64,000 bases of DNA. Source: Marasmitruncus massiliensis (lineage in GTDB: Bacteria > Bacillota > Clostridia > Oscillospirales > Ruminococcaceae). Position 1 is the stretch's first letter, and each line of letters opens with the position of its first letter. Below, in pieces: positions 41,129 through 63,772 of this stretch. The stretch spans positions 1,712,895 through 1,776,894 of the forward strand of contig NZ_FYDE01000005.1 in NCBI RefSeq assembly GCF_900186535.1, read 5' to 3'. The notes under the pieces were generated by a model. That model searched no databases. It had not been told where the DNA came from and saw nothing but the letters and a program-made list of their open reading frames with translations. The translations under genes were made by a program, and so were the position numbers.

Positions 41129-41264
41129 CCGCTCCGACCCTTCCACCCACTATTCTCTTGTCCTATATTATACAGGTAATTATAGAGCATTCGAATAAAT
41201 ATGTCAATAAAATCAATTCATTATTTGCATATGCTACAAAATTATTGAATCAATAGCTTTTTTA

Positions 41265-41293: not shown

Positions 41294-41352
41294 CATGTAG
41301 TACAACGATCAAGTGTCGTTCGCACTCACAAAATAGAAAGGGGAAATGTACT

Positions 41353-42417: not shown

Positions 42418-42489
42418 AAATGATTTGCGGTTGCCTGTTATAAACGGCAACCGCACTTAAAAAATGTATAAACCAGGGGGAGAGATCTT

Positions 42490-44076: not shown

Positions 44077-44080
44077 GAGG

Positions 44081-44587: not shown

Positions 44588-44599
44588 GGAGGAAAACTA

Positions 44600-46090: not shown

Positions 46091-46094
46091 CCAA

Positions 46095-47243: not shown

Positions 47244-47261
47244 AGAAGGTTTGTAATAGAT

Positions 47262-47405
47262 ATGCGGGAACGGGTAATTAACGCTATACCGGGGTATAAA
47301 ATGATTGCAATTATTCGGCGCGATTTACACCGTCCCGGCGTGTGCGCAGGAATACCGGGCCATTACCGCAAAGTTGTAGTCAAGATTAATGTGGACCTTT
47401 TATGA
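47262..47405 (+). CDS. Short ORF resembling the N-terminus of a KDPG aldolase
   Basis: A 47-residue frame in the 189-bp gap between dgoD and dgoA. It starts MRERVINAIPGYKMIAIIRR, which is like the first strand of KDPG/KDPGal aldolases, then diverges. It may be the relic of a duplicated or replaced dgoA 5' end. The next gene has its own GAAAGGGGGAGAGG region. A functional product is unlikely. Confidence 0.4.
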   Translation: MRERVINAIPGYKMIAIIRRDLHRPGVCAGIPGHYRKVVVKINVDLL

Positions 47406-47432
47406 TATATGAAAGGGGGAGAGGTTTGAAAT

Positions 47433-48083
47433 ATGGTAGATATTCTTTTACAGGTGCGTAAATATCGCATCATCGTCGCTCTGCGGGGGATTCAGCCGAA
47501 GGATGTAACGGCTGCCGCCCGCGCCCTTTATGACGGAGGAATCCGTCTGCTGGAAATCACTTTTGACCAAGCGGACCCAAATACCGAAGCTAAGACCGCA
47601 GATGCCATTTCAGCCGTTCGCCGAGAATTTACCGATCGCATATTGGTCGGCGCCGGAACCATCCTGACTCCTGACCAGGCTAAAGTGGCTGTGGAGGCCG
47701 GTGCGGAATACCTTCTGTCCCCGCATTTTGATCCCACCGTGGTTACAGCCGCCCGCGCACTGAATGTTCCTTCCATTCCCGGCGCTTTTACTCCGAGCGA
47801 GGTCGCGGCAGCCTGGGAGGCCGGAGCCTCTATGGTCAAGCTCTTCCCGGCGGGAAAGCTTGGTATCCCCTATCTAAAAGACATGGCGGCTCCTCTGGGA
47901 CATATCCCGCTTTTGCCCATGGGAGGAGTGGATTTGGCCAACATGAACGACTATCTGGCTCTTTCAAACGTGGCCGGTATTGGAATCGGCTCCGCAATCG
48001 TGAAACGTTCACTGATCGAGAAAGGCGACTTTGAAGGCCTATGCAAATTGGCGCGCAGCTTCACTGAAAAGCTGCCGCAGTAA
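47433..48083 (+). CDS. dgoA: 2-dehydro-3-deoxy-6-phosphogalactonate aldolase (KDPG-aldolase family)
   Basis: A 216-residue class I aldolase barrel. Landmarks: IIVALRGI (phosphate/pyruvate Arg), LLEITFDQ with the catalytic Glu, LVGAGTILTPDQA, FLLSPHFDP-like YLLSPHFDPTV, and VKLFPAGKLG, where the first Lys forms the Schiff base. It cleaves 2-dehydro-3-deoxy-6-phosphogalactonate to pyruvate and glyceraldehyde-3-phosphate. Neighbouring dgoD and dgoK define the galactonate assignment; KDPG itself cannot be excluded. Confidence 0.9.
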   Translation: MVDILLQVRKYRIIVALRGIQPKDVTAAARALYDGGIRLLEITFDQADPNTEAKTADAISAVRREFTDRILVGAGTILTPDQAKVAVEAGAEYLLSPHFDPTVVTAARALNVPSIPGAFTPSEVAAAWEAGASMVKLFPAGKLGIPYLKDMAAPLGHIPLLPMGGVDLANMNDYLALSNVAGIGIGSAIVKRSLIEKGDFEGLCKLARSFTEKLPQ

Positions 48084-48102
48084 TGGAAAAGGAGAAAAGC
48101 TG

Positions 48103-49101
48103 ATGGGCTCTTACATCATCACGATCGACAGCGGTACTACCAATACACGCGCCTTTCTCTGGAATGATGACCGCCGGGTAGTCGCCCGGGCAAAGCGGGA
48201 GGTCGGCGTGCGCAATACCGCCATCGACGGCAACAACAGGAAACTCAGGGAGGGCGTAAAGGATTGTATCCATGAAGTCCTGTCCAAGTCCGGACTCGGG
48301 GAATCTGACTTAAAGAGCGTATTGGCAAGCGGCATGATCTCATCCAACGTTGGGCTGGTGGAGATTCCCCATTGTGTGGCTCCTGTCGGTATCGGCGATT
48401 TGGCTGCCGCAGCGAAACAAGTATCTCTTCCCGAAGTCTGTTCCGTACCCATCACCTTTATTCCCGGCGTCAAAAATGCCGTTGAAACGGTTGACCTGAC
48501 TAATTTCGAGTCTATGGATATTATGCGTGGTGAGGAAGTTGAGAGCGCCGCACTTATGGAAATATTCCCTCAGGGACGGGAATATCTGTTCTTACTGCCG
48601 GGCTCACACATGAAATTTGTTTCAGTGAATGCCGGTGGGAAAATCACCGGATGCCTTACCAGCATCAGCGGTGAATTGCTTTCCTGCATTACAAACGATA
48701 CCATAATCGCAGATGCAGTCAATCGGAAATTTGCTTCTGCGGAAACCTATGACCGCCAAATGGTACTCTTGGGCTACGAGACCGCAAGGAAAACCGGTAT
48801 AGGTCGGGCATGCTTTTCGGCCCGTATCCTTAGCCAATTTTCCGGGCAAAGCTCTGAGATGCTTTCAAATTACATTTTAGGTGTGGCTCTTCAGAGTGAT
48901 GTGACCAGCATTCGGAACTCTGGTGCCCTGACCGTCGGGCCACAGACCGAAGTGGTGATTGCGGGCAATATGCCCGTGCAGCAAGCTATATCGGATATTC
49001 TGAAATATGACGGTTACTTTCGGAACATTCACGCCTACATACCGCAATCCGACATCCCTCTTTCTGCTCTGGGTGCGTGGACTATCATGAATGTACATTG
49101 A
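48103..49101 (+). CDS. dgoK: 2-dehydro-3-deoxygalactonokinase
   Basis: A 332-residue sugar-acid kinase of the DgoK family (ASKHA fold). ATG 48103 follows AAAAGGAG, and the upstream frame is ignored. It begins IITIDSGTTNTRAFLW, the phosphate-1 loop, and includes GMISSNVGLVEIPH and LPGSHMKFVSV. It phosphorylates 2-dehydro-3-deoxygalactonate at O6, between DgoD and DgoA in the pathway. It is the last gene of the operon and is followed by a terminator. Confidence 0.92.
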   Translation: MGSYIITIDSGTTNTRAFLWNDDRRVVARAKREVGVRNTAIDGNNRKLREGVKDCIHEVLSKSGLGESDLKSVLASGMISSNVGLVEIPHCVAPVGIGDLAAAAKQVSLPEVCSVPITFIPGVKNAVETVDLTNFESMDIMRGEEVESAALMEIFPQGREYLFLLPGSHMKFVSVNAGGKITGCLTSISGELLSCITNDTIIADAVNRKFASAETYDRQMVLLGYETARKTGIGRACFSARILSQFSGQSSEMLSNYILGVALQSDVTSIRNSGALTVGPQTEVVIAGNMPVQQAISDILKYDGYFRNIHAYIPQSDIPLSALGAWTIMNVH

Positions 49102-49839: not shown

Positions 49840-50634
49840 TCACATGGTCTCAGGATTGGAAACAACGATTACCTCGGTACCAAGATTTCTGTAATAGGAC
49901 AGATACTCTTCCGGAGTATGACTGTCTGTAATCAATGTAAAGTGCTGATTGAGAGCAGAAACGTGAACAAGATTTTTCTTGCCCAGTTTAGTGTGGTCGG
50001 CCAGTACGACCACATGCTTTGACGAAGAAATGACAGTAGAAAAAACACCGGCTTCCAACAAGTTATAAGCATATAGATTTCCGTTTTCATCTAAAGCGGA
50101 GGAACTGATGAAGGCACAATCAATCGTAAAATCGGAAATCATTTTTTCTGCGATATAGCCGGTTGCATTGAGCGAAGGAAGAATCAGTTGGCCGCCGACC
50201 ATTATTACGGTGTTTTTATCCGATGCTGCTAAAATGGTAGAGATATATAAATTATCCGTAATGATGGGAACGGAAAGGCCGGGACTCATTTGTTTGGCCA
50301 TACAATAAATGGTCGATCCAGAACCTAAAAAAATAGAATTCGGGTGGTTTGAGCAAATATGTGTTTGAAGATATTCCACACCGTGGCGCCCAATCGCCGC
50401 CTTGCATTCATAATTTACACCAATCCTTAGCTCAAACGCGGCCTCGGATTTCTCGCTTTGCCGAACGCTGGCTCCGCCGTGAAAGCGTGAGATTTTTCCT
50501 TGTTTTTCTAAGGCGGCCAAATCTCTGCGTATTGTCATCTCCGAGACTTGAAAAGCCGCAGTCAATTCAAGGGTGCTTACATTTTCGTGATTTTCAATGT
50601 AGTCGTAAATTTGTGCCAATCGTTCTCGTTTCAT
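49840..50634 (-). CDS. DeoR-family transcriptional regulator
   Basis: A 264-residue sugar-responsive repressor. N-terminal HTH (residues 1-56): VSTLELTAAFQVSEMTIRRDLAALEKQGKI and FHGGA; the rest is the DeoR sensor domain (IFLGSGSTIYCMAKQM with the phosphate-binding loop, VIMVGGQL, DCAFISSSALDENG, VVVLADHTKLGKK). DeoR proteins bind a phosphorylated sugar as inducer. It is divergent from the ten-gene sulfatase operon, so it should control it, perhaps sensing a hexose or hexitol phosphate made there. Confidence 0.9.
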   Translation of the reverse strand: MKRERLAQIYDYIENHENVSTLELTAAFQVSEMTIRRDLAALEKQGKISRFHGGASVRQSEKSEAAFELRIGVNYECKAAIGRHGVEYLQTHICSNHPNSIFLGSGSTIYCMAKQMSPGLSVPIITDNLYISTILAASDKNTVIMVGGQLILPSLNATGYIAEKMISDFTIDCAFISSSALDENGNLYAYNLLEAGVFSTVISSSKHVVVLADHTKLGKKNLVHVSALNQHFTLITDSHTPEEYLSYYRNLGTEVIVVSNPETM

Positions 50635-50990: not shown

Positions 50991-52184
50991 ATGAGAAGGT
51001 TAATCGCATCTGTTCTTGCAATTGCTTTTGCGCTCTCGATCACGGCCTGTAGCGGCCAGTCTGAAAGTGTTGCATCGACACCGGTATCGGCATCCCAATC
51101 AGAAGTGGCATCCCAATCTGTAGCGGCATCGCTACCCGCTGACCAGTATAAATTAACAGAGAAGGGGACTCTGACGCCCGAGACCATCGAGGCGCTTGCA
51201 GGGACTAAACTTACCGGAAAAACGATTTCTGTAGGAACCATGGCCATGCCTTTGGGACTTCCTGTTTACATTGCCAAGGAAAAAGGGTTGTTTGAAAAGG
51301 CTGGGCTGGATGTGTCAATCGACATTTTTGCTTCCGGAACCCCCATCAACGAGGCGATGGCTGCAAAGCAATTTGATATCGCTGTCAGTGGCTGGGCATC
51401 CGCGTTTGCTCTTGCTACCGGTGAATACACTTACATTGGCGACGGATGCATGTCCTACTACGGGCAGAAGATCTTCGGACGTCCGGACGCCGCATATGCG
51501 AGCGATACCTCTTCTGGCATCGACGGTGTACTCGGCTCGGCTGAAACCATTAAAAACGCAGTGGTTCTGGCCCCCTCAAATACCTCTTCTCATTTCCTTA
51601 CACTGCAATATGTGAAGGCACTCGGTCTGGAAACGAGTGACATTGAATTCACAAACATGCAATATGCGGATGCATATTCAGCTTTTATCACTGGTAATGG
51701 GGATTTAATTGCAACCACAAACCCGTATAATCAGCAGCTTACTGATGCGGGCTACGTGGAAGTATGCGACCTGAATAATATTCTGGACTGCATGATCGCG
51801 GATGCGGTGTACTGCCAGAATGATATGATGGACAAGAGCCGCGCTGCTGACATTTTGGCCTTTATGGACTGCTACTATGTAGCGGCTGACATGCTGGTAA
51901 AAGACCCGGATTCGTTATGGTATAAAGCTGGTATGGAGTGGTATGCAGAAAACGGATATACTTACACGGATGAGGATATGTTGCAAGAAATTGACTCCCG
52001 TACTTTTAATACTTATGATACGCTGTGCACGCCGGAACATCAATTCGGCTATGGTATGGTCGTTTTGACAGAATTCTACAATAGTGTGGATTCCATTGAG
52101 GATGAGGGTGTGGAGAATACTAAGAACTGTATTGATCCTTCCTTTGTAATAACCTTGATGGATGCGCATAAGCAGGCGACCTAA
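50991..52184 (+). CDS. NitT/TauT-type ABC substrate-binding lipoprotein
   Basis: A 397-residue binding protein of the NMT1/SsuA-like group. ATG 50991 follows TTTGGAGG, and the lipobox is SITAC (Cys18), so the longer frame from 50937 is rejected. After a Ser-rich linker the mature domain begins KTISVGTMAMPLGLPVYIAKEKGLFEKAG, with the typical FASGTPINEAMAAKQFDIAVSG. SsuA/TauA relatives bind sulfonates and sulfate esters. With a sulfatase in the operon, the ligand is likely a sulfated or sulfonated sugar. Confidence 0.88.
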   Translation: MRRLIASVLAIAFALSITACSGQSESVASTPVSASQSEVASQSVAASLPADQYKLTEKGTLTPETIEALAGTKLTGKTISVGTMAMPLGLPVYIAKEKGLFEKAGLDVSIDIFASGTPINEAMAAKQFDIAVSGWASAFALATGEYTYIGDGCMSYYGQKIFGRPDAAYASDTSSGIDGVLGSAETIKNAVVLAPSNTSSHFLTLQYVKALGLETSDIEFTNMQYADAYSAFITGNGDLIATTNPYNQQLTDAGYVEVCDLNNILDCMIADAVYCQNDMMDKSRAADILAFMDCYYVAADMLVKDPDSLWYKAGMEWYAENGYTYTDEDMLQEIDSRTFNTYDTLCTPEHQFGYGMVVLTEFYNSVDSIEDEGVENTKNCIDPSFVITLMDAHKQAT

Positions 52185-52278
52185 CCTGAATTTATCGGAA
52201 GCCGATTTATTATGCAAAATGGAGGAACTCAGATGTTGCATTTGAATTCCTCCATACTTTTAGGAAGTGAAGGTAAAA

Positions 52279-53064
52279 ATGAAAAAATTAGCGCGCCATA
52301 AATATTTGTTGATTTCATGCCTGTCCATTGTGCTAATTTTGTTGACATGGTATTTATGCGTAGACATTCTCAACATGGTAAGCGGATCAGCATTCCCGAA
52401 ACTGACCAAAACGATTAGCACATTTATCAAAAAATTCACGACGGCCGCTCCGGACGGGGCAACCTTGACAGTGCACTTTTTCAACAGCATTAAGGTTGCG
52501 CTTTGGGGATACGTCATGGGCGTCATCGTGGGGGTACCGCTTGGCATACTAATGGCCTGGTTTCGAAAATTTGACATGTTCGCACGTCCTCTGTTTGACT
52601 TGATCCGTCCTATCCCAGGAATTGCATGGATCCCGCTGTTCATTTTGATGTTTGGTATAGGCGTGTTGCCCAAAGCGCTTGTGATTTTCCTGGGGGTACT
52701 GATCCCCAGTACAGTCAACGCTTACACTGGCATAAAACAGACTTCTGACGTTCATTTGTGGGTGGGTGATGTTTTCGGGGCAAGCAATGCGCAAAAGCTT
52801 TTTAAAATTGCGATTCCGACGGCAACGCCGATGATTTTTACTGGCCTTCGTGTGGCGATGGGATCTGCCTGGTCCGCTCTCGTGGCAGCTGAACTTCTGG
52901 CTTCCAGCAGTGGTTTAGGCTATCTCATTCAGATTGGCCGATCGATCAGCCGGTCCGATCTGGTGCTGGTGGGAATGATCTGCATCGGCGTGACGGGGGC
53001 TCTGCTGGATGAATTACTGCATCTTGTGGAGATTCGAGTTGCAAAGGGGATGAATGCCAAATGA
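52279..53064 (+). CDS. NitT/TauT-type ABC permease, first of two
   Basis: A 261-residue SsuC-like permease with six helices. ATG 52279 is preferred (GAAGGT upstream) over the GTG at 52267. The coupling-loop EAA motif is VGDVFGASNAQKLFKIAIPTATPMIFTGLRVAMGSAW, near residues 160-196. DLIRPIPGIAWIPLFILMFGIG is the usual helix 3-4 region. It overlaps the second permease gene by 4 bp. Two different permeases are less common than a homodimer in this family. Confidence 0.9.
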   Translation: MKKLARHKYLLISCLSIVLILLTWYLCVDILNMVSGSAFPKLTKTISTFIKKFTTAAPDGATLTVHFFNSIKVALWGYVMGVIVGVPLGILMAWFRKFDMFARPLFDLIRPIPGIAWIPLFILMFGIGVLPKALVIFLGVLIPSTVNAYTGIKQTSDVHLWVGDVFGASNAQKLFKIAIPTATPMIFTGLRVAMGSAWSALVAAELLASSSGLGYLIQIGRSISRSDLVLVGMICIGVTGALLDELLHLVEIRVAKGMNAK

Positions 53065-53843
53065 AAAAGAAGAAAACACCTGAAGTCTGGATCTGCGGCA
53101 TTGTTTCCGTTTTTGCATTTTTATTATTATGGCAAATTGGTTGTTCGGTATCTGAATTAGGCAAAATGATTCCCGGTCCGATCACTGTGACCGGCGCGGT
53201 TTTAAAAAGTATGGTGTCGCGTTCCATCGGCGGGCATACTCTGTGGATCCATATCGGTTACAGCTTGCTGCGCGTATTGACGGGATATATTTTGGGCTCT
53301 GCACTGGGGGTTGTAGTGGGTCTGGCAATGGGCTGGAATAGGGTAGTAGAAGCGTTTATTACTCCTATATTCCGTTTGATACGTCCTATCCCCCCCATCG
53401 CTTGGATACCCATTTCTATTTTGTGGTTTGGCCTTGGATTTCAAGCAAAAGTCTTTTTGATCGTGTTGGCCTCTTTTTGCAATGTGACGTTGAATGCATG
53501 GGCTGGTGCCAAAAGCGTCGACCCCCAATTAATCGGTGCGGCTAAAATGCTGGGCGCCAGCAAATCTCAAATATTTTTTACAATCGTGATGCCTGCCTCG
53601 GTGCCGCAAATTTTTGCGGGTTTGCAGGTGGCAATGTCCAGCAGTTGGACAACGGTACTCGCGGCAGAAATGGTACGTTCTACAGAGGGCTTGGGATGGA
53701 TGATCGTCACCGGACAAACGAATCTTGACATGACGCAAATCCTCGTGGGCATTGTTGCAATTGGTGTTGTCGGCTTTATTCTGGTTGCGGTCATGAGAAG
53801 AATGGAGGACATCTTATGCAGATGGAACAAAGGAAAAAGATAG
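53061..53843 (+). CDS. NitT/TauT-type ABC permease, second of two
   Basis: A 260-residue permease of the same family, six helices. RLIRPIPPIAWIPISILWFGLGFQAK and the EAA loop GAAKMLGASKSQIFFTIVMPASVPQIFAGLQVAMSSSW are visible. It is clearly paralogous to, but not the same as, the preceding permease, so the channel is probably a heterodimer. It overlaps the first ATPase gene by 28 bp. Confidence 0.9.
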   Translation: MKKKKTPEVWICGIVSVFAFLLLWQIGCSVSELGKMIPGPITVTGAVLKSMVSRSIGGHTLWIHIGYSLLRVLTGYILGSALGVVVGLAMGWNRVVEAFITPIFRLIRPIPPIAWIPISILWFGLGFQAKVFLIVLASFCNVTLNAWAGAKSVDPQLIGAAKMLGASKSQIFFTIVMPASVPQIFAGLQVAMSSSWTTVLAAEMVRSTEGLGWMIVTGQTNLDMTQILVGIVAIGVVGFILVAVMRRMEDILCRWNKGKR

Positions 53844-54592
53844 AGCCTGTAATACAATGCGACAATCTCTGCAAAACTTTCCGCACGCCTGGCGGAGATC
53901 AGGAAGTCATTCGTAATATTTCACTGGATGTACAGGAAAATGAGTTTGTGGTCCTGTTCGGGCCGGGACAGTGTGGAAAGACGACGTTCTTGAATATGAT
54001 TGCCGGACTGGAGAAAAGCACCGCCGGTACGGTGACGGTAAGTAGAAAATGTGTGACAGAACCCGGACCGCAGCGTGGAGTGGTTTTTCAGTCTGTTGCA
54101 CTGTTCCCCTGGTTGACGACGATGGGAAATGTTGAATACGGACTGAAGATGGCCGGTGTTAAAAAGGAAGAACGTCAAAAGCGCGCGCAGAAATATATTG
54201 ATCTGGTCGGCTTGCAGGGCTTTGAAAACACTTTCCCCGTAGAGCTTTCCGGCGGCATGAAGCAGCGTGTGGGCATTGCGCGCGCATACTGTATTGAGCC
54301 GGAAGTGATGCTGCTGGATGAACCATTTGGTGCATTGGATGCTCAAACGCGTTACCTGATGCAGGAAGAGCTGGAACGCATCTGGCAGACGGCAAAGAGG
54401 ACAGTTGTTTTTGTCACCAATAATATTGAAGAGGCATTGTATCTTGCAGACCGCATCATCGTTCTCAGTCCATGCCCGTGTTCTATTGTCAAAGAGTTTG
54501 AGATCGATTTACCCCGCCCTAGAAATTACACGTCCCAGGAATTTCTTCATTTGCGCAAAGAGATCGATGCGACGATAAACAGTTCAACATAA
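53816..54592 (+). CDS. NitT/TauT-type ABC ATPase A (canonical signature, Asn in H-loop)
   Basis: A 258-residue SsuB-like ATPase. Walker A GPGQCGKTT (49-57), Q-loop VVFQSVALFPW, signature LSGGMKQR (144-151), Walker B VMLLDEP with catalytic Glu169. The switch His is replaced: FVTNNIEEA has Asn202 where FVTHDIEEA is usual. ATG 53816 follows TGGAGG. The same His-to-Asn change is in the partial paralogue at 63769-64000. It pairs with ATPase B encoded next. Confidence 0.9.
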   Translation: MQMEQRKKIEPVIQCDNLCKTFRTPGGDQEVIRNISLDVQENEFVVLFGPGQCGKTTFLNMIAGLEKSTAGTVTVSRKCVTEPGPQRGVVFQSVALFPWLTTMGNVEYGLKMAGVKKEERQKRAQKYIDLVGLQGFENTFPVELSGGMKQRVGIARAYCIEPEVMLLDEPFGALDAQTRYLMQEELERIWQTAKRTVVFVTNNIEEALYLADRIIVLSPCPCSIVKEFEIDLPRPRNYTSQEFLHLRKEIDATINSST

Positions 54593-54602
54593 GGAGAGTC
54601 TT

Positions 54603-55346
54603 ATGGAAAATGATGTAAAGGTTCAGGTACGTCACCTGACTAAAAAATTTGGCGATTTGCTGGTATTGAACGATGTATCGTTTGATATCATGCGTGGAGA
54701 GCTATTGTGTGTCGTTGGACCCACCGGGTGCGGAAAAACAACTTTTCTGAACACGCTGACGAAGATATATGACATCACATCCGGAGAAATATTGGTAGAC
54801 GGAAAGCCGGTAGATCCCAAGGTACAGAACATTTCCTACATTTTTCAGGGCGATTCCACGATGCCGTGGCTGACAGTAGAGCAAAATGTTGCCTTTGGGC
54901 TGGAGATAAAGCACTGCCCGGAAGATCAAAAGAGAGAACTTGTGGAAAAGTATCTCAACGTAGTAGGCTTAACAGATTATCGAAACTATTACCCCAAGCA
55001 GCTTTCCGCCAGTATGCTGCAACGAGTCAGCATTGCCCGCGCGTTCGCAACGGAGCCAGAACTGCTGCTGATGGATGAACCCTACGGGCAATTGGACATA
55101 GATCTGCGTTTCAAACTGGAAGACGAGTTGGTAAAATTATGGAAAATGACCGGTACCACCGTGTTGTTTATTACGCATAATGTGGAGGAAGCAGTCTATC
55201 TGTCCAGTCATGTTATGGTCCTTACCAACAAGCCTACCACGGTCAAAACGATTCTCAAAAATGATCTTTCCCGTCCGCGCGATATCGCGGATCCTGCATT
55301 TGTTGAAATGCGCAATGAAGTTACGCGCTTGATTAAATGGTGGTAA
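54603..55346 (+). CDS. NitT/TauT-type ABC ATPase B (degenerate signature)
   Basis: A 247-residue ATPase. Walker A GPTGCGKTT (39-47), Walker B LLLMDEP with Glu159, and a normal H-loop FITHNVEEA (His192). The signature is LSASMLQR (134-141) in place of LSGGxQQR, losing both Gly that contact ATP. Combined with ATPase A, the dimer would have one site with all motifs and one with a bad signature plus Asn in place of His. The end, RLIKWW, is conserved in the paralogue at 63032-63772. Confidence 0.9.
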   Translation: MENDVKVQVRHLTKKFGDLLVLNDVSFDIMRGELLCVVGPTGCGKTTFLNTLTKIYDITSGEILVDGKPVDPKVQNISYIFQGDSTMPWLTVEQNVAFGLEIKHCPEDQKRELVEKYLNVVGLTDYRNYYPKQLSASMLQRVSIARAFATEPELLLMDEPYGQLDIDLRFKLEDELVKLWKMTGTTVLFITHNVEEAVYLSSHVMVLTNKPTTVKTILKNDLSRPRDIADPAFVEMRNEVTRLIKWW

Positions 55347-55370
55347 GCCGAAAATAGGAGTTGAGCAATC

Positions 55371-56849
55371 ATGGATAAAAAACCTTTAAATGTAGTATGG
55401 TTTTGTACAGACCAGCAGCGATGGGACACCATCCACTGTATGGGAAATCCTTATATTCACACGCCGCATATCGATAAATTCGCTTCTGAGGGTGTTGCTT
55501 TTTCACGCGCATACACCCAGTCCCCGGTCTGTACGCCGAGCCGTTCCTGCTTTTTGACCGGGCGGTATCCGCGCGCGACACGCGATACATATAACGGCAG
55601 CGAGGTTTATTCTAAAGATGAAGTACTGGTTACCAAGATGCTTGCAGACCAGGGCTATACCTGTGGCCTGACAGGAAAACTCCATCTGACGGGAGCTTGC
55701 GGAAGAATGGAGGCCCGTACGGATGATGGTTATAGCTACATGCAGTGGAGTCATCATCCCCATGACGACTGGCCGAAGGGGATCAACTGTTACCAAAATT
55801 GGTTGGAGGAAAAGGGGCTTAAATGGGAAGATATTTATGGCGGGCGCTACACCAGTCTGGCAAAATTCCCACCGGAACAAAACCCTAATTTTACAGGAAA
55901 GGATGTAGGTGTTCCGGCAAAATATCACCAAACAACCTGGTGTGTTGAAAAAGCAATCGAATTTATCGAAACGTGCAAAGATACATCAAAGCCGTGGCTG
56001 GTCAGTATCAATCCTTTTGATCCGCATCCGCCGCTGGATCCGCCTCAGGAATATAAGGACCGCTTGAAAGTGGAGGATATGCCGCTTCCCCTGTGGGAGG
56101 ATGGCGAGCTTTGGAATAAAACGCCTATCCAACAAAAGGACTATTATATTGGCGGGCAAAATGGATCGACAGAATCTATCACCAAAAAAAGTGAATACGA
56201 CAAAAAAGAATATATTCGAGATTATTACGCGCAAATTGAGCTGATTGACGATCAGTTCGGCAGGTTGATGGAATATCTTGACCGCACTGACCAGCGGGAA
56301 AATACGCTTGTTATTTTTATGAGCGATCATGGCGATATGTGCGGTGATCACGGCGTATATTGGAAAGGTGTCTATTTTTATGAAGGCCTTGTCCATGTTC
56401 CTCTTATCATGTCTTTGCCTGGCATCATTCAGCAAAATGTTGTAAGTGAGGCATTGATCGAGTTGGTGGACATTGCGCCGACCATCCTGGAATTGCTGGG
56501 AAAAGAAGTGCCCCAATATATGCAGGGCAAAAGTTTCGCCAAATTGCTGAAGGGCAAGGCCCCGCTGCACAAGCATAAAGAATCTGTTTATTCAGAATAT
56601 TACTGGTGCGTCAAAAATGTGGACAGGGAATACGGTACCATGTATTTTGACGGACGCTACAAGATCGTCAATTACCATTACCGTCCCTATGGAGAACTGT
56701 ACGACTTGCAGGAGGATCCCCACGAATTTCATAACTTGTGGAGCGAACCGCATTATGCGGAGCTGAAGGCAGAGCTCATGAAGAAAAATTTCGACGACGC
56801 CATTATGAAAAATATGGATTACATTTTGGAATACAAGTACGAATTCTGA
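55371..56849 (+). CDS. Cytoplasmic sulfatase, choline-sulfatase-like
   Basis: A 492-residue sulfatase. CTPSR (54-58) is the Cys-type formylglycine site. The N-terminal metal run is FCTDQQRWD, the lysine is in LTGKLHL, and the second metal run is FMSDHGDMCGDHG. The Asp-Gln/Asp-His pattern is that of the choline-sulfatase-like group. No signal peptide is present, so the substrate must enter the cell first, as expected next to an ABC importer. It starts 24 bp after ATPase B and is followed by the sugar-phosphate genes. Confidence 0.9.
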   Translation: MDKKPLNVVWFCTDQQRWDTIHCMGNPYIHTPHIDKFASEGVAFSRAYTQSPVCTPSRSCFLTGRYPRATRDTYNGSEVYSKDEVLVTKMLADQGYTCGLTGKLHLTGACGRMEARTDDGYSYMQWSHHPHDDWPKGINCYQNWLEEKGLKWEDIYGGRYTSLAKFPPEQNPNFTGKDVGVPAKYHQTTWCVEKAIEFIETCKDTSKPWLVSINPFDPHPPLDPPQEYKDRLKVEDMPLPLWEDGELWNKTPIQQKDYYIGGQNGSTESITKKSEYDKKEYIRDYYAQIELIDDQFGRLMEYLDRTDQRENTLVIFMSDHGDMCGDHGVYWKGVYFYEGLVHVPLIMSLPGIIQQNVVSEALIELVDIAPTILELLGKEVPQYMQGKSFAKLLKGKAPLHKHKESVYSEYYWCVKNVDREYGTMYFDGRYKIVNYHYRPYGELYDLQEDPHEFHNLWSEPHYAELKAELMKKNFDDAIMKNMDYILEYKYEF

Positions 56850-56896
56850 AGCGTAATACATGTTTGCGATTAACGGCAATAGAAAGGAAATATTTT

Positions 56897-57745
56897 ATGG
56901 CATTGGTGAGTTCGCTGGAAATTTTGTCGGACGCGCAAAAAGGCGGTTATGCCATCGGCGCATTTAATGTGGAAAATATGGAGATGGCGGAGGCCACTAT
57001 AATGGCGGCGGATGAAATGAAGGCACCCGTGATTTTACAAACGACGCCCTCCACCGTACGTTATGCGAGTCTTGAACTATACTGTGCAAACGTAAAAGCA
57101 ATTGCCGACCAGGTGAAAATTCCGGTCGTTATGCACCTTGACCATGGCAGCAGCTTTGAACTCTGTGCTCGGGCATTCCGTGCAGGATATACGAGCATCA
57201 TGATCGATGGAAGCCATCTGCCCCTGGAGGAAAACATTGCGCTTACGAAGCGTGTTGTCGATATGTGCATGCCGGCGGGCATTCCCGTTGAGGGCGAGAT
57301 CGGCCGGGTAGGCGGGAAGGAAGATGATACCGTATGCGAAAACGCAGGCTATACGATCCCTGCCGAAGCGATTCGCTTCGAAGCGGAGACCGGGCTCTCG
57401 AGCATGGCGGTGGGTGTGGGTACGGCGCATGGAGTTTACAAAACAACACCGGTGCTCAACACCGCGCTCGTCAGCGAATTACGCAACATGCTTACGGTAC
57501 CCATGGTGCTGCACGGAGCGTCGGGTCTCTCCGACGAAGCGGTACGGGAGTGCATACGGCGCGGCATTTGCAAGGTGAATTTTGCAACCGAGCTTCGCAT
57601 CGCCTATTCCGACGGTATCAAGGAAGTGCTGAGAGAGGCCCCGGAGACCTTTGACCCAAAGGCATACGGAAAGATCGCCCGCGAGAAAGTGAAGGAACTC
57701 GTCAAAAATCGCATCCGCGTGTGCGGATGCGACGGCAAGGCGTAA
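56897..57745 (+). CDS. Class II ketose-bisphosphate aldolase (GatY/KbaY/FbaA type)
   Basis: A 282-residue zinc aldolase. Zinc ligands are His in HLDHGSSF, His in GTAHGVY and His in LHGASGLS; the catalytic Asp is in HLDHG, and EGEIGRVGG is the conserved loop. ATG 56897 follows AGAAAGGAAA; the longer frame from 56738 overlaps the sulfatase. The substrate may be tagatose- or fructose-1,6-bisphosphate. The neighbouring GatD-like and PfkB genes make tagatose-1,6-bisphosphate plausible, giving DHAP and glyceraldehyde-3-phosphate. Confidence 0.9.
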   Translation: MALVSSLEILSDAQKGGYAIGAFNVENMEMAEATIMAADEMKAPVILQTTPSTVRYASLELYCANVKAIADQVKIPVVMHLDHGSSFELCARAFRAGYTSIMIDGSHLPLEENIALTKRVVDMCMPAGIPVEGEIGRVGGKEDDTVCENAGYTIPAEAIRFEAETGLSSMAVGVGTAHGVYKTTPVLNTALVSELRNMLTVPMVLHGASGLSDEAVRECIRRGICKVNFATELRIAYSDGIKEVLREAPETFDPKAYGKIAREKVKELVKNRIRVCGCDGKA

Positions 57746-57757
57746 GAAGGTGAACGT

Positions 57758-59275
57758 ATGGGTGAGGTGCTGCTCGGTATCGATATTGGAACCTCCGCAT
57801 GTAAGGCGGCAGCTTTTACGACAGATGGCAAGGTGTTGGCGCAGGCTACGGAAAACTACAAAGTTTACTACCCGCAGCCCGGCTGGGCCGAACAGGACCC
57901 TGAAGAATGGTGGAGAGCTGTATGTCGTGCGATCCGCGCAGTGCTGGAAAAAGGTGTGTGCGCGCGGGATGTGCAGGGGGTGGGCGTAGATGGACAAAGT
58001 TGGAGTGCCATTGCGGTAGACCGAGAGGGAAACGTGCTTTGCCGCACTCCTATTTGGTTCGACACACGCGCGGTCCCTCAATGTGAACAAATGAAAGTAT
58101 TATGTGGCTGTGAGAAGCTGTTTTCCGTCAGCGGGAATCCCTTGCAGCCAATGTACACCATGCCCAAGGTACTGTGGTATAAGCAGAACAGACCCGAGGT
58201 CTATACCAAAGCTGATCAAATATTGCAGTCAAACAGCTTTATCGCCTACCGGCTTACCGGTGTTTGCTCCCAGGAACACAGCCAGGGATACGGCTGGAGC
58301 TGCTATGACGTGGCTGCGAAAACCTGGGACGCAGAGCTCTGCGCAGAGCTTGGCGTGCGGCCGGAGCTGCTGCCTTTGCTTGTGCAGAGTCACAACGTGA
58401 TTGGCGGGATTACCGTCAGGGCAGCGCGGGAGACCGGCCTTGCAGTAGGCACGCCTGTGGTTGCGGGTGGCCTTGACGCGGCGTGCGGAACCCTCGGCGC
58501 CGGTGTGACAGGACCCGGCCAAACGCAGGAACAGGGCGGCCAGGCGGGGGGCATGAGCATTTGCATCGGCGCCCCCCGCGCGGAGAAACGGCTGATTCTG
58601 AGCCCGCATGTAGTGCCGCAAATGTGGCTGCTGCAGGGAGGAACGGTGGGCGGTGGCGGCGCAGTAAACTGGTTTTTACAGGAATTCGGCGCTGCAGAGC
58701 ATATGGTTGCAGAACAAAGCGGAACGAATCCTTTTCAGGAGATGGACAGGGGTGCAGCGGATATTCCGGCGGGCAGTGAAGGACTCGTATTTCTGCCATA
58801 TCTCGCGGGTGAGCGAAGTCCGCTGTGGAACGCAAAGGCTAAGGGCGTTTTTTACGGGATTGACTTTTCCAAAACGCGCGCACATTTTGCGCGCGCGGTG
58901 ATGGAGGGCGTGGCCTGCTCGCTGCGACATAATCTGGAGGTGGCGGAAGCGGCGGGCGCCCATACCAAAACCTTGCGTGCCATGGGAGGCGCGGCAAACA
59001 GTTCACTGTGGATGCAGATTAAAGCGGACATAACGGGCAAGCGCATTGAGGTGCCATCATCCGACACGGCAACGGCTCTTGGGGCCGCCATCCTGGCAGG
59101 TGTAGGCACGAATATATATGCGGACTTTGATGAAGCGGTGCGCCGTACCGTGCATATCCGGTGTGCCTACGAACCGTGCGAAACGAATCTGGCGGTGTAC
59201 AGCAGTACCTATCAGATCTATCGTGAGCTATATGAGAATTTGAAATCTTTGATGAATAGGAAAACGATAATATGA
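57758..59275 (+). CDS. FGGY-family carbohydrate kinase, xylulokinase-like
   Basis: A 505-residue kinase. It starts VLLGIDIGTSACKAAAFTTDG (P-loop), then WAEQDPEEWW, GVGVDGQSWSAIAVD with the substrate region, GGLDAACGTLGAG with the catalytic Asp, and LRAMGGAANSSLWMQIKADITG. It resembles XylB, but in this operon the acceptor is probably a hexitol or hexose released by the sulfatase. The end overlaps the next start by 4 bp. Confidence 0.88.
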   Translation: MGEVLLGIDIGTSACKAAAFTTDGKVLAQATENYKVYYPQPGWAEQDPEEWWRAVCRAIRAVLEKGVCARDVQGVGVDGQSWSAIAVDREGNVLCRTPIWFDTRAVPQCEQMKVLCGCEKLFSVSGNPLQPMYTMPKVLWYKQNRPEVYTKADQILQSNSFIAYRLTGVCSQEHSQGYGWSCYDVAAKTWDAELCAELGVRPELLPLLVQSHNVIGGITVRAARETGLAVGTPVVAGGLDAACGTLGAGVTGPGQTQEQGGQAGGMSICIGAPRAEKRLILSPHVVPQMWLLQGGTVGGGGAVNWFLQEFGAAEHMVAEQSGTNPFQEMDRGAADIPAGSEGLVFLPYLAGERSPLWNAKAKGVFYGIDFSKTRAHFARAVMEGVACSLRHNLEVAEAAGAHTKTLRAMGGAANSSLWMQIKADITGKRIEVPSSDTATALGAAILAGVGTNIYADFDEAVRRTVHIRCAYEPCETNLAVYSSTYQIYRELYENLKSLMNRKTII

Positions 59276-60318
59276 AAGCAGCAGTATTATATGCGAACGA
59301 AGATATTCGTTACGATGATTATGAAACACCATCGGTAAAGCCCGGCACGGTGAAAGTACATGTGCGCGCAACGGGGATCTGCGGCAGCGATGTGCCCCGG
59401 GTGCTCAACCATGGAGCGCATTTCTATCCCGTGGTGCTCGGGCATGAGTTTTCGGGTGACGTAGTGGAGGTCGGGGAAGGCGTCACGACTATCCGGGTGG
59501 GTGATACGGTTTCAGGCGCGCCGCTTTTGCCGTGCATGAAGTGTGCCGACTGCCAGAACGGAAATTTTTCCCTATGTAGACACTACAGCTTTATAGGAAG
59601 CCGGGAGCAGGGAAGCTTTGCGGAGTATGTGGTGATGCCGGAGAAAAACGCGGTGAAGTATGACAGCAGTATCCCATATGAGCAGGCGGCCATGTTTGAG
59701 CCGTCCACTGTGGCGCTGCATGGGCTCTTTTGCAGTGATTACCAGGGCGGCGGGTGCGTTGCGGTGCTGGGGTGCGGAACCATTGGGATTTTCACGTTGC
59801 AGTGGGCGAAAATATTCGGAGCGAAAAAACTGGTGGCGTTCGACATTGACGAAGGACGACTGGCGCTTGCAAAGCGCATGGGCGCGGACGAAGTTGTAAA
59901 CACCCAAAGCGAAGACTACATAAAGCGGACGATGGAAATCACGGAAGGATACAAATTCGACTATGCGTTTGAAGCAGCGGGAAATCCTGCCACGATCCAT
60001 ATTGGCTTTGAGGTGGCGTCCAACAAAGCGCATGTATGTTGCATTGGCACGCCGCACACAGATATGAGCTTTACGCCCCGCGAGTGGGAAAATATGAACC
60101 GCAAGGAATTTAAGCTCACCGGCAGCTGGATGAGTTATTCCTCGCCGTTTCCGGGTAGGGAATGGACTCTTACGGCCCACTATTTTGCTACCGGACAATT
60201 GAAATTCGATCCGGATTTTATCTTTAAAAAATATCCTCTGCGGCAAGCCGCAGAGGCGTTTGCAGAGTTCCGTCATCCCGAAAGGGTCCATGGAAAGATT
60301 ATGCTGATGAACGGGTGA
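59272..60318 (+). CDS. Zinc alcohol dehydrogenase, GatD-like (galactitol-1-phosphate 5-dehydrogenase)
   Basis: A 348-residue medium-chain dehydrogenase. Catalytic zinc site: Cys in TGICGSDVPR, His-Glu in LGHEFSG; structural zinc Cys set in LPCMKCADCQNGNFSLC. Rossmann loop GCGTIGIF. It follows E. coli GatD in distinctive places (GSDLPR-like GSDVPR, HYYP-like HFYPVVLGHEFSG, FIGSR, GSWMSYSSPFPGREW). GatD oxidises galactitol-1-phosphate to tagatose-6-phosphate. Here there is no PTS, so its substrate would come from the FGGY kinase. Confidence 0.88.
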   Translation: MKAAVLYANEDIRYDDYETPSVKPGTVKVHVRATGICGSDVPRVLNHGAHFYPVVLGHEFSGDVVEVGEGVTTIRVGDTVSGAPLLPCMKCADCQNGNFSLCRHYSFIGSREQGSFAEYVVMPEKNAVKYDSSIPYEQAAMFEPSTVALHGLFCSDYQGGGCVAVLGCGTIGIFTLQWAKIFGAKKLVAFDIDEGRLALAKRMGADEVVNTQSEDYIKRTMEITEGYKFDYAFEAAGNPATIHIGFEVASNKAHVCCIGTPHTDMSFTPREWENMNRKEFKLTGSWMSYSSPFPGREWTLTAHYFATGQLKFDPDFIFKKYPLRQAAEAFAEFRHPERVHGKIMLMNG

Positions 60319-60330
60319 GGTGACGATCAC

Positions 60331-61272
60331 ATGATTTTGACAGTTACACTCAACGCATCGGTGGATAAATCCTATGTTGTAGACCATCTGGACCCGTACA
60401 AAGTGATGCGCGTCAAGGAAGTGAACAATACCGCGGGGGGAAAGGGTCTGAATGTATCCCGCGTGGCAGCGTTGGCCGGAGAGCCGGTTACGGCCATGGG
60501 TTTTATAGGAGGGCACAACGGGCGATTGTTCGAAAGCCTGATCTTCGTACGCGGCATTGAAAAACGTTTTACGCACATCAACGCCGAAACGCGCTGCTGT
60601 ATCAACGTGCGCGATCTCGCAACCAACAAAAGCACGGAGTTCCTTGAGCCGGGCAGCTTGGTGACAGAGGACGACCTCGCCGCGTTTTTGCACGACTTTG
60701 AAACGCAGCTCCCTCTATCCCGCATTGTCACGATCTCCGGTAGCATGCCGAAAGGCGTGCCGGCTGATTTCTACGGCCTTCTCGTGGAGCTGGCACGGCG
60801 CGCGGGAAAACCCGTTTTATTGGACTCAAGCGGCGAGGCGCTTCGTGCCGCACTGAGCGCATATCCAACCTTTATAAAGCCCAACGCGGACGAGATCTGC
60901 CAATTGCTTGGGAAAACAGTAAGCTCTCGGCAGGAGGTGATTGCTGCTGCGCGGCAGCTGCACGATGGCGGTGTTGATACTGTGGCGGTCTCCCTTGGCA
61001 GAGACGGCGTGCTTGTAGTGAGCGGCGAGGGCGTTTATCGTGGCATCACTCCGAATGTGCCCGTGGTGAACACGGTGGGCTGCGGCGACAGCATGGTGGC
61101 CGGATTCGCGGTCGGCCTCGCGCGGGGAATGGCTCTGCCGGAGCGGATCCGCTATGCCGTGGCCATTTCCACCGCTAATGCGCTCACGCAGGAAACCGGC
61201 AGTTTCCGTGGAGAAGATCTCGAGGCATTGCTGCCGCAGATCCAGGTGGAGAGGCTAAGCGCCTTTGCGTGA
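60331..61272 (+). CDS. PfkB-family 6-phosphoketose kinase (LacC/FruK-like)
   Basis: A 313-residue kinase of the 1-phosphofructokinase/tagatose-6-phosphate kinase group. LTVTLNASVDKSYVV at the start, AGGKGLNVSRVAALAG, SGSMPKGVP, KPNADEICQLLG and the anion-hole motif NTVGCGDSMVAGF with catalytic Asp are present. It would phosphorylate tagatose-6-phosphate or a similar ketose phosphate to the 1,6-bisphosphate used by the aldolase. It is the last gene of the operon, with GAGGTGA before the start. Confidence 0.9.
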   Translation: MILTVTLNASVDKSYVVDHLDPYKVMRVKEVNNTAGGKGLNVSRVAALAGEPVTAMGFIGGHNGRLFESLIFVRGIEKRFTHINAETRCCINVRDLATNKSTEFLEPGSLVTEDDLAAFLHDFETQLPLSRIVTISGSMPKGVPADFYGLLVELARRAGKPVLLDSSGEALRAALSAYPTFIKPNADEICQLLGKTVSSRQEVIAAARQLHDGGVDTVAVSLGRDGVLVVSGEGVYRGITPNVPVVNTVGCGDSMVAGFAVGLARGMALPERIRYAVAISTANALTQETGSFRGEDLEALLPQIQVERLSAFA

Positions 61273-61362: not shown

Positions 61363-61405
61363 AAATCTCCATTGCCTGTTTTATCTTATCAGACAATGGA
61401 GATTT
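61363..61405. terminator. Bidirectional terminator between converging operons
   Basis: AAATCTCCATTG pairs with CAATGGAGATTT around a 19-nt loop. The 282-bp gap contains no gene. Confidence 0.8.
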
Positions 61406-61554: not shown

Positions 61555-63018
61555 TTACCATGCCGATAATCGCTCTCCCATAGGATCCACCGTAAATGCC
61601 ATTGCATCACTTAATTGTACCAGCTTACTGATCTTTACACTCGTATAGTCAGGGTCGTCCCAAAGGTTATGAGTTTCCTTCGGGTCTTTAGACAGATCAT
61701 AAAGTTCCCCCTCCTTCGTGCTATGGACATTCACCAGTTTATACCGGCCATCAAAAACCATTGTACACTGAGCGTTGGGGGCTTTGTGCCAAGGCATGGA
61801 ATTGTAGTATTCACAGTAAATACAATTCTTATGACGATCCTCACAATTTGGGTCTGTCAGCAAATCCCACAGAGATTTTCCCTGCATTTGAGGCTGCGTA
61901 TCCAAACCGATTGCTTCCGTTAATGTGGGGGACAAATCCACCAGCTCCACCAGTGCGCTGCTGCTGAATCCTTGCCGGATTGTACCAGGGCAGGAGATGA
62001 TCAAAGGAATGTGGGTGGCACCTTCATAAAAATATGGGCCCTTTAGATAAATACCATGATCTCCGAGCATCTCGCCATGATCGGAGGTAAAGATGACAAT
62101 AGTGTTTTCTAACTGCCCCAATCGTTCCAACGTATCTATCAGACGGCCAACCTGCTTGTCAATAAGATCCACCATGGCATAATAGGATGCTTTCATCAGC
62201 CGATGTTCCCAGTCGCTCATGTTGTCATAGATAATAGCTGCATTGTTGGAATCGTGATTGTTATAAGCACCCTTATGGTCCAGCTTTTGGAACAAAGGCT
62301 TGTCATCCAGTTCCCCCGGAGCATAATTCGGCAATGGAAGATCGTCCAAGCAATCCATATAACGATCCAGGTATGCTTTGGGTGGATCAAAAGGATGGTG
62401 AGGGTCATAGATGTTCAGGGAAAAGAACCAAGGGTTTTTGTATTCCACATTTGCCTCAATAAAGTTGAGCGCTTTCTCCGTACACCAGGTGGTCTGGTGG
62501 TACTCCTCATTCATGCCGTATTGAACCAATTCCGTGCCTTCCACGTTGCAGGCGGAAAACCGTTGCCCTTTTTCCCGCAGCCACTGAAAATATTCGTGTG
62601 TGGCCCAGCCATCGTGACCGCCATGGGACCAATGAAATACGTCGTAGCCGTCGTCAATGCGTTCTTCCATGCCTTTGCAGATATCTGGATTACAGGGGTT
62701 GAGATGCAGCTTGCCAGACAGGCCGCAGACATATCCCTGCTCGGAAAATATTTTACTGATGAGTTTTTCGTCACGCGGAATCCTTTGGCCGTTTTGGCGG
62801 CAGCGGGTTGTACGTGGGTACCGGCCGGTCAAAAAGCTGGCACGGCTGGGAGAGCAGGTAGGGTTTTGACAATATGCCCGCTCAAACCGTGTGCCATTCT
62901 GAGCCAAACGATCGAGATTTGGTGTATGCACATACGGGTTCCCGTAACAGCCCAGGGTGTCCCAGCGCTGCTGGTCGGTACAAATCCATAGAACATTATA
63001 TTGTGCGTTTTTACTCAT
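61555..63018 (-). CDS. Cytoplasmic sulfatase, choline-sulfatase-like, second paralogue
   Basis: A 487-residue sulfatase. ATG 63018 follows AAAGGAG, so the longer frame from 63249 is rejected. CSPSR (55-59) is the formylglycine site; ICTDQQRWD, LSGKLHL and FTSDHGEMLGDHG match the sulfatase at 55371-56849 in order, with DPHHPFDPPKAYLDRY corresponding to DPHPPLDPPQEYKDR there. No signal peptide. It follows two ATPase genes on the same strand, so the second locus repeats the order ATPase A, ATPase B, sulfatase. Confidence 0.9.
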   Translation of the reverse strand: MSKNAQYNVLWICTDQQRWDTLGCYGNPYVHTPNLDRLAQNGTRFERAYCQNPTCSPSRASFLTGRYPRTTRCRQNGQRIPRDEKLISKIFSEQGYVCGLSGKLHLNPCNPDICKGMEERIDDGYDVFHWSHGGHDGWATHEYFQWLREKGQRFSACNVEGTELVQYGMNEEYHQTTWCTEKALNFIEANVEYKNPWFFSLNIYDPHHPFDPPKAYLDRYMDCLDDLPLPNYAPGELDDKPLFQKLDHKGAYNNHDSNNAAIIYDNMSDWEHRLMKASYYAMVDLIDKQVGRLIDTLERLGQLENTIVIFTSDHGEMLGDHGIYLKGPYFYEGATHIPLIISCPGTIRQGFSSSALVELVDLSPTLTEAIGLDTQPQMQGKSLWDLLTDPNCEDRHKNCIYCEYYNSMPWHKAPNAQCTMVFDGRYKLVNVHSTKEGELYDLSKDPKETHNLWDDPDYTSVKISKLVQLSDAMAFTVDPMGERLSAW

Positions 63019-63031
63019 TTTTTTAGCTCCT

Positions 63032-63772
63032 TTACCACCACTTGATGAGATCGGTGATGCGGTTGCGCATCTCGACAAAGTCGGGATGCGTGATATCCCT
63101 GGGACGGTCAAAATCATCGATAATGACTTCTTTAATGGAAGTGGGCTTGTTGGTGAGCACCAAAATCCGGTCTCCCAGATAAACAGCCTCTTCAATATTA
63201 TGGGTAATGAAAACAACTGTGGTGTTTGTCTGTTTACATAAGCGGACAACCTCGTCCTCCAGCTTGAAGCGCAGGTTAATGTCTAACTGCCCGTAGGGTT
63301 CATCCATCAGCAACAGTTCAGGCTGGGTAGCAAACGCCCTTGCAATCACAACCCGTTGCAGCATGCTGGCGGATAACTGCCGGGGATAATAGCTCTCAAA
63401 CTGTTTTAACCCTACTAACTCCAGCGCATCATCCACTTTTTTGTCAATACCATCGTACTGCTGCTTGATTTCCAGCCCAAATCGGACATTTTGCCTGACC
63501 GTAAGCCATTCCATCGCGGAATACTCCTGAAATATATAGGTAATGTTGTGCTTTTGCAGGTCAACAGGTTCCCCTTGAAACAGTATGCTGCCCGAGGTGG
63601 GCTCATACAGATGAGTCAAACTGTTGAGGAAGGTGGTTTTGCCACAGCCTGTCGGGCCCACAATACAAAGAAATTCGCCTTTGTACACGTTAAACGTGAT
63701 ATCATTCAACACCAACAGGTCTCCAAACCGTTTGCTGAGGTTTTCTACTTTAACAATTGCATTCCGGTTCAC
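63032..63772 (-). CDS. NitT/TauT-type ABC ATPase B paralogue (degenerate signature)
   Basis: A 246-residue ATPase. Walker A GPTGCGKTT, signature LSASMLQR, Walker B LLLMDEPYGQLD, H-loop FITHNIEEA and the end LIKWW. It shares the altered signature with ATPase B at 54603-55346 and is clearly its paralogue. The GTG start overlaps the stop of the upstream ATPase gene (GTGA), with GGAGGGC before it. It lies 13 bp before the sulfatase gene. Confidence 0.9.
   Translation of the reverse strand: MNRNAIVKVENLSKRFGDLLVLNDITFNVYKGEFLCIVGPTGCGKTTFLNSLTHLYEPTSGSILFQGEPVDLQKHNITYIFQEYSAMEWLTVRQNVRFGLEIKQQYDGIDKKVDDALELVGLKQFESYYPRQLSASMLQRVVIARAFATQPELLLMDEPYGQLDINLRFKLEDEVVRLCKQTNTTVVFITHNIEEAVYLGDRILVLTNKPTSIKEVIIDDFDRPRDITHPDFVEMRNRITDLIKWW

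Follow-up and report, generated by a model that had tools for sequence, protein, structure and literature searches.

We analysed a stretch of 64,000 nucleotides from Marasmitruncus massiliensis (contig NZ_FYDE01000005.1, positions 1,712,895 to 1,776,894 of the forward strand), referred to below as the window, and found that a ten-gene operon on its plus strand, operon B (50991-61272), joins an importer of the NitT/TauT type and a cytoplasmic sulfatase to enzymes resembling those of galactitol breakdown. The operon appears to take up a sulfated C6 sugar alcohol, with galactitol sulfate as the likeliest candidate, and to burn the carbon of this compound; we give this reading a probability of about 0.5. 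Gene content, protein families, motifs and conserved linkage were observed, and from these we infer each activity and the substrate. The original prediction for this DNA had placed the importer, the sulfatase, an FGGY kinase, a GatD-like dehydrogenase, a PfkB kinase and a class II aldolase in a single operon, and all ten genes were confirmed. Adjoining genes overlap by at most 28 bp or are separated by at most 47 bp, the latter being the gap between the sulfatase gene and the ATG of the aldolase gene (56897); the exception is a gap of 82 bp 3' of the first gene.

The first five genes encode the ATP-binding cassette (ABC) importer, with an NMT1/SsuA-like substrate-binding protein (SBP), which is a lipoprotein, two TauC/SsuC-like permeases and two TauB/SaoA-like ATPases. 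Because all of these proteins scored under the curated NCBIfam cut-offs, no named substrate can be assigned to the importer. The sixth gene encodes SulfB, which matched PF00884 (163.6 bits) and the SGSH_C domain (107.5 bits) and carries the motif CTPSR, starting at residue 54, in agreement with the C-x-P/A-S/A-R pattern of type I, or formylglycine (FGly), sulfatases. The first active-site Asp of SulfB is residue 14, and since merely 13 residues precede it, the protein is without a signal peptide by inspection, as had been claimed. SulfB is the putative hydrolase of a sulfated sugar or polyol. Its maturation would depend on a probable anaerobic sulfatase-maturating enzyme (anSME), a radical-SAM protein with the motif CNLRCKYC whose gene lies ~81 kb upstream of where the window begins. 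Genes that resemble anaerobic sulfatase maturases were also seen near importer-sulfatase loci in two other genomes (locus L135, 1-712; locus L139, 14072-15205).

The pairing of importer and sulfatase recurs in relatives. A search of 396 genomes from the host's family for AtpB, the second ATPase of the importer, scored at most six candidates per genome, so importers may have been missed. Nineteen genomes, the host's own included, yielded 24 places, two of them in the host itself. All 22 remaining loci were read; they include near-relatives of one genus and are thus not 22 independent events. A sulfatase adjoined the importer in 12 of 12 loci in which AtpB was at least 65% identical, a cut-off set after inspection of the data, and in one of ten looser relatives (L148; Fisher p 2e-5). 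In ten of the 12 close loci the sulfatase gene lies downstream of that for ATPase B, and in L132 and L134 it precedes the SBP gene. Because the 12 sulfatases fall into three divergent lineages (types L137, L128a and L132), with identities of ~22-37% among themselves and with SulfB, the pairing is judged to have arisen more than once. Four of the looser relatives (L138, L142, L143 and L147; AtpB 58-62% identical) have sulfonate-type genes adjacent. In L147 (10338-14828) a sulfopropanediol dehydratase scored over its cut-off (1027 vs 1000), whereas an SftI-like sulfoquinovose isomerase in L138 (7178-8494; 206 vs 700), genes for transketolase N-halves in L142 and L143, and transaldolase-like genes in L142 all scored under theirs. 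The natural reading is that the importer family serves small anionic sulfur compounds, with one branch for sulfate esters. Intact import of a sulfate ester followed by desulfation inside the cell, as originally proposed, is therefore the part of the pathway that we regard as very probable, given the sulfatase beside every close importer relative. A pathway for sulfoquinovose or another sulfonate was considered for operon B and rejected, as the enzyme neighbouring its importer is a sulfatase and genes for a sulfoquinovose isomerase, transaldolase, transketolase and glycyl radical enzyme are absent from the operon. Separately, genes for a histidine kinase and an AraC-type response regulator adjoin the importer-sulfatase genes of L137.

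The remaining four genes form a catabolic core that is found far more widely. A scan for the FGGY kinase, with one genome per species, found 338 relatives, and the 80 best were retained; 34 of these were 49-60% identical and had their neighbourhoods read, and the other 46 were at most 39% identical. These 34 loci, mostly from Lachnospiraceae, contained GatD (at least 50% identical) in 30 cases, GatY in 27 and PfkB in 22, together with an aldo/keto reductase (AKR) in 26 and the ATPase of a CUT2-type sugar ABC importer in 20; several contigs end close to the core. GatD was 53-73% identical between the relatives and the window. The window's kinase fell into one supported group of the FGGY tree (100/100; 36 rows), with its place inside that group not settled. 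Among the 396 genomes of the host's family, 11, counting the host, have the kinase with an E-value no higher than 1e-130, and the ten others have GatD (10/10), GatY (9/10), AKR (5/10) or PfkB (2/10) beside it, with neither a sulfatase nor a NitT/TauT importer in their core loci. In all, the core recurs in 45 other loci (35 + 10; some species are possibly in both sets). Since the ten other members of the genus gave no FGGY relative above 39% identity, old inheritance within the genus is not favoured. On a Fusobacteria plasmid (L127) the core comprises FGGY, AKR, GatD, GatY and PfkB with an L-fucose-mutarotase-type gene and an aldose 1-epimerase; its GatY exceeds the cut-offs for tagatose-bisphosphate aldolase, and an anaerobic sulfatase maturase is encoded nearby. 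A search for plasmids with the window DNA gave no match.

No sulfatase was seen in the available DNA of 44 of the 45 core loci. In the exception, L037 (3978-8097), a sulfatase gene lies upstream of LacI and FGGY genes, in a row, after which the contig ends; its product is 54% identical to the importer-linked sulfatase of the L128 type, and this truncated contig is a possible second case of sulfatase plus core. With a sulfatase in one of 45 loci, the core as a sulfate-specific pathway was rejected, and the earlier idea that the lower half of the pathway is special to sulfated substrates did not hold. Both gene sets recur in other genomes and are thus beyond chance. The search for the same gene set in other neighbourhoods, which had been proposed earlier, succeeded for each module but gave no other locus among those examined that joins both fully.

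The core enzymes point to D-tagatose 6-phosphate, and hence to galactitol. The best PDB match of GatD was E. coli GatD, the galactitol-1-phosphate 5-dehydrogenase (251.1 bits; next 143.3), whose substrate we take to be a phosphorylated polyol. The motif GSWMxYS, common to this protein and E. coli GatD, occurred in all 30 orthologues from the core loci and in none of 14 other dehydrogenases of the FGGY-scan loci or six in importer loci; the closest solved protein and the motif thus agree on a GatD-type enzyme. The aldolase was closest in the PDB to the tagatose-bisphosphate aldolase AgaY (1gvf) and passed the general ketose-bisphosphate aldolase model TIGR00167 (296.3 vs 215.6). PfkB passed TIGR03168 (333.6 vs 216.4). 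PfkB and GatZ were mutually exclusive in the 34 core loci (22 PfkB, 5 GatZ, 7 neither), with a p of 0.003 that ignores kinship and comes from a table drawn after inspection of the data. Because E. coli GatZ/KbaZ yields tagatose 6-phosphate from fructose 6-phosphate (PMC11907403), PfkB and GatZ fit one intermediate, D-tagatose 6-phosphate. The route through this compound and its bisphosphate, which the original prediction also proposed, appears probable on these grounds.

In the proposed pathway, the lipoprotein and the NitT/TauT importer would bring the sulfate ester in intact, and cytoplasmic SulfB, matured by the genome's probable anSME, would release galactitol and sulfate. The FGGY kinase would phosphorylate galactitol at an end carbon, in place of the step catalysed by a phosphotransferase system (PTS), and GatD would oxidise the product to D-tagatose 6-phosphate. 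PfkB would then form D-tagatose 1,6-bisphosphate, which GatY would split into glycerone phosphate and glyceraldehyde 3-phosphate. Searches of the genome gave no galactitol-type PTS permease (EIIC-GAT) and no GatZ, each with E. coli as positive control, and no core-type AKR at E 1e-10 with a query that was positive in 2 of 2 control genomes. With none of the three found, the most economical reading is that the alditol enters the cell as such, in sulfated form. The lack of EIIC-GAT, with an FGGY kinase inside the operon, also bore out the claim that the pathway is independent of a PTS. That the kinase acts before GatD is the order we somewhat prefer, and galactitol sulfate as the substrate is a tentative choice, at slightly under even odds. 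As a whole, the original interpretation is partly supported; a hexitol rather than a hexose as substrate, the order of kinase and GatD, and the activities themselves are what the genes suggest.

Several observations weigh against this pathway. None of the 22 importer-relative loci contains GatY, FGGY or PfkB, and none of the 45 core loci contains the NitT/TauT importer, so that the two modules are fully joined in one genome alone among the loci examined; in one genome (G436), ~1.5 Mb separates a looser importer (L138) from the core (L174). Outside the host's genome, the relatives nearest to SulfB within the order (five loci in four genomes) have no such importer in the available DNA. The protein sequences do not pin down the substrate: SulfB scored under the cut-off of every curated sulfatase model it matched, and its best PDB match, 7oz8, is given in a review table as a sulfatase for 3-O-sulfated N-acetylglucosamine. 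The predicted structure of the SBP was too poor for use (pLDDT 37.7), and that of SulfB (pLDDT 55.8, active-site stretches below 50) had an unreadable pocket and was not used. The maturase candidate scored just under curated cut-offs (340.9 bits vs 349.45; 364.4 vs 441 for NF010321). GatD was under the cut-off of the equivalog model NF007642 (304.6 vs 550), although this was its best-scoring model, and the aldolase was likewise under the cut-offs of its best-scoring models, those for tagatose-bisphosphate aldolase (351.4 vs 384 and 348.9 vs 383). The FGGY kinase missed the equivalog cut-offs, that of the xylulokinase model TIGR01312 included (372.3 vs 380.25). PfkB passed the 1-phosphofructokinase model TIGR03828 (307.7 vs 292) and missed that for the tagatose-6-phosphate kinase LacC, TIGR01231 (239.6 vs 409.55).

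Two alternatives keep the enzymes of the core and change what enters it. D- or L-galactose 6-sulfate might be imported, desulfated and reduced to galactitol by a reductase encoded elsewhere. The AKR that flanks most core relatives does suggest that those loci start from an aldose reduced to galactitol, and neighbouring genes for FucI (10 of 34 loci, one partial: L014, L015, L022-L026, L028, L038 and L059) or the L-fucose-mutarotase-type FucU (L014, L127, L171, L174 and L176) hint at L-galactose or a similar aldose as a possible substrate of the unsulfated core. Such an entry would also find a reductase in the window, where another AKR is encoded at 2190-3173. However, a core-type AKR was not found in the genome at E 1e-10 and operon B itself is without a reductase or mutarotase gene, so we consider this version unlikely. 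The order of steps might instead be reversed, with GatD oxidising free galactitol or another hexitol, the FGGY kinase phosphorylating the resulting ketose at C1 or C6, and PfkB adding the second phosphate. The FGGY model nearest to the kinase is that of the xylulokinase group, whose members act on ketoses, and a PfkB over the 1-phosphofructokinase cut-off would fit a ketose 1-phosphate. The clear orthology of GatD to an enzyme named for a hexitol phosphate speaks for phosphorylation first, as does the AKR of the core relatives, which would supply an alditol to the kinase; oxidation first seems to us no likelier than entry as a hexose.

The nature of the imported compound can be questioned as well. 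SulfB could be a phosphodiester or phosphonate-monoester hydrolase beside an importer of phosphorylated or sulfonated compounds: it scored 42.3 bits with the Phosphodiest model (cut-off 23), matched PehA (203.5 vs 900) and had phosphonate monoester hydrolases among its PDB matches, and sulfonate-type genes lie beside some importer relatives. Its SGSH_C domain and FGly motif, a carbohydrate sulfatase as the best PDB match, the pairing of the importer clade with three different sulfatase lineages, and the coupling of a sulfatase to sugar-acid breakdown in neighbouring operon A (below) make this improbable. It is harder still to credit that operon B is a means of scavenging sulfur, with the carbon genes beside the sulfatase by accident. 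Sulfur supply is a frequent role of NitT/TauT and Ssu importers, but the sulfatase gene and those of a full carbon pathway overlap or nearly touch, and a DeoR-type regulator of the kind found with sugar operons is present. The uptake and use of galactitol sulfate remains our preferred reading of operon B.

Features of the window that bear on operon B and its neighbours are listed below.

Table 1. Operon B, its putative control elements and the flanking sulfatase operons (window positions)
Feature	Position	Strand	Basis or content
Operon A	40409..49101	+ (GntR regulator on -)	TctC, SulfA, TctB, TctA, D-galactonate gene set
DeoR/GlpR/AgaR-type repressor	49840..50634	-	PF00455 + PF08220; divergent from operon B
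Lipoprotein SBP	50991..52184	+	NMT1/SsuA-like; lipobox ITAC seen by eye
ABC permease 1	52267..53064	+	NitT/TauT type
ABC permease 2	53061..53843	+	NitT/TauT type
ABC ATPase A	53816..54592	+	NitT/TauT importer
ABC ATPase B (AtpB)	54603..55346	+	Member of sulfatase-linked clade
SulfB, cytoplasmic type I (FGly) sulfatase	55371..56849	+	PF00884, SGSH_C domain, CTPSR motif
Class II ketose-bisphosphate aldolase, GatY/KbaY-like	56897..57745	+	PDB best match and NCBIfam scores
FGGY carbohydrate kinase, proposed hexitol (galactitol) kinase	57758..59275	+	Tree group; xylulokinase model nearest
GatD orthologue, galactitol-1-phosphate 5-dehydrogenase type	59272..60318	+	PDB best match; GSWMxYS motif
PfkB-family sugar-phosphate kinase (1-phosphofructokinase/LacC group), proposed tagatose-6-phosphate kinase	60331..61272	+	TIGR models
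Hairpin between operon B and convergent operon C	61363..61405		-18.5 kcal/mol, z -6.0
Operon C, part within the window	61555..63772	-	SulfC and an ABC ATPase; ATPase, two permeases and SBP past the window end

The divergent repressor matched AgaR, SrlR and GlpR models with scores under the cut-offs and, from its position, is the probable regulator of operon B. The hairpin has a T-rich tail on its minus side, as seen by eye, and is possibly a terminator shared by operons B and C; it lies outside the terminator-like sites of a promoter and terminator scan in which sites were no commoner than in shuffled sequence (17 vs 16.4 and 15 vs 14.2).

Operon B is flanked by two further sulfatase operons, A and C, which the original prediction did not mention. 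The 3.76-Mb genome encodes four PF00884 proteins (E 0.001). Its three FGly-type sulfatases all lie within 20.5 kb of one another, an arrangement with a crude chance probability of ~9e-5, and the fourth is a 642-aa membrane protein, presumably, from its look, a lipoteichoic acid synthase. The D-galactonate set of operon A comprises a galactonate dehydratase (647.8 bits vs a model cut-off of 311), an aldolase of the type acting on 2-keto-3-deoxy-6-phosphogluconate or its galactonate counterpart (KDPG/KDPGal) and a 2-keto-3-deoxygalactonokinase. Operon A is thus a candidate for the use of sulfated galactonate through the D-galactonate (De Ley-Doudoroff) genes. A relative of SulfA at E 1e-100 was found in one other of the 396 family genomes, inside a sulfatase cluster (L181). 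A further pairing of galactonate-type with galactitol-type genes was seen in L012 (4120-8316), where a galactonate dehydratase 65% identical to that of the window is encoded ~2 kb upstream of the core GatY.

Operon C repeats the gene order of operon B (SBP, two permeases, two ATPases, sulfatase), with corresponding proteins 27-64% identical (SBP 27%, SulfC and SulfB 45%). As read in L006 (3032-10857, from window position 63032 onward), it consists of importer and sulfatase genes with no catabolic genes. Beside its SBP gene are genes for a 594-aa sensor-kinase-like and a 511-aa response-regulator-like protein, seen by eye. Operons A and B suggest an island for sulfated galactose derivatives. 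In this arrangement D-galactonate sulfate would enter through the tripartite transporter TctABC and feed the De Ley-Doudoroff route in A, galactitol sulfate would feed the tagatose pathway in B, and C would handle a third sulfate ester, each with its own inner sulfatase; we hold this only as a possibility, less firmly than the substrate of operon B. If true, the island would imply that sugar acids and sugar alcohols both occur in nature as pools of sulfated compounds, for which, to our knowledge, nobody has looked. At the other end of the window (2190-15379) is a different sugar locus, which encodes the AKR named above, a major facilitator superfamily permease, a CUT2-type importer, a second FGGY kinase, an NADH:flavin-oxidoreductase-family protein and a xylose-isomerase-like TIM barrel protein.

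In the usual picture, the sulfated sugars of mucin, proteoglycans and seaweed lose their sulfate outside the cytoplasm, for the most part through Bacteroides. A portable importer-sulfatase cassette in this family would show a second strategy, in which the ester is taken up whole and desulfated inside, with sulfate released in the cytoplasm. The pairing of the importer clade with three other sulfatase lineages offers a search handle for unknown sulfate esters, and the non-PTS galactitol/tagatose core of the 45 other loci is a testable pathway in its own right. Each part is of a known kind, and both growth-related use of a monosaccharide sulfate by way of an intracellular sulfatase and PTS-free galactitol use are already known; the combination seems new. 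Literature searches, with most subscription journals outside their coverage, turned up no FGGY-family galactitol kinase and, in titles and the starts of abstracts, nothing that connects a sulfatase with the breakdown of galactitol or tagatose. Within these searches, the earlier remark that no described pathway of this form was known stands for the combination; it fails for one of its elements, since Bifidobacterium breve UCC2003 is reported to use N-acetylglucosamine 6-sulfate with an intracellular sulfatase (Egan et al., 2016, as cited in PMC7326374 and PMC9239261).

The ats clusters of B. breve are alike in handling a monosaccharide sulfate through an intracellular sulfatase, and they are reported to carry transport, regulator and anaerobic maturase genes. 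They differ in substrate and hosts, and in operon B the maturase lies outside the operon. The ats clusters presumably also lack a tagatose-type core. Agrobacterium tumefaciens reportedly has ABC-dependent pathways for galactitol and D-altritol (Wichelecki et al., 2015, a study cited in PMC11907403), which would share with operon B the PTS-independent use of galactitol through D-tagatose 6-phosphate but are said to end in a GatZ-type 4-epimerase and to have no sulfatase. The importers of L138, L142, L143 and L147 belong to the same family as that of operon B, with sulfonate-type genes in place of sulfatases as neighbours. The LacI-FGGY-GatD-PfkB-GatY-AKR loci of Lachnospiraceae and others (L007-L038 and others), on which the searches turned up no paper, have core genes orthologous to those of operon B, whereas a CUT2-type importer (20 of 34) and an AKR (26 of 34) take the place of the NitT/TauT importer and the sulfatase. 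The E. coli gat operon works with a PTS, GatD and GatY/GatZ, together with PfkA. Operon B resembles it in its GatD orthologue and GatY-like aldolase and, as proposed here, in the intermediates D-tagatose 6-phosphate and D-tagatose 1,6-bisphosphate; in contrast to E. coli, no EIIC-GAT PTS and no GatZ were found in its host, and the operon has an ABC importer, an FGGY kinase, a PfkB of its own and, in our reading, entry of the substrate as a sulfate ester.

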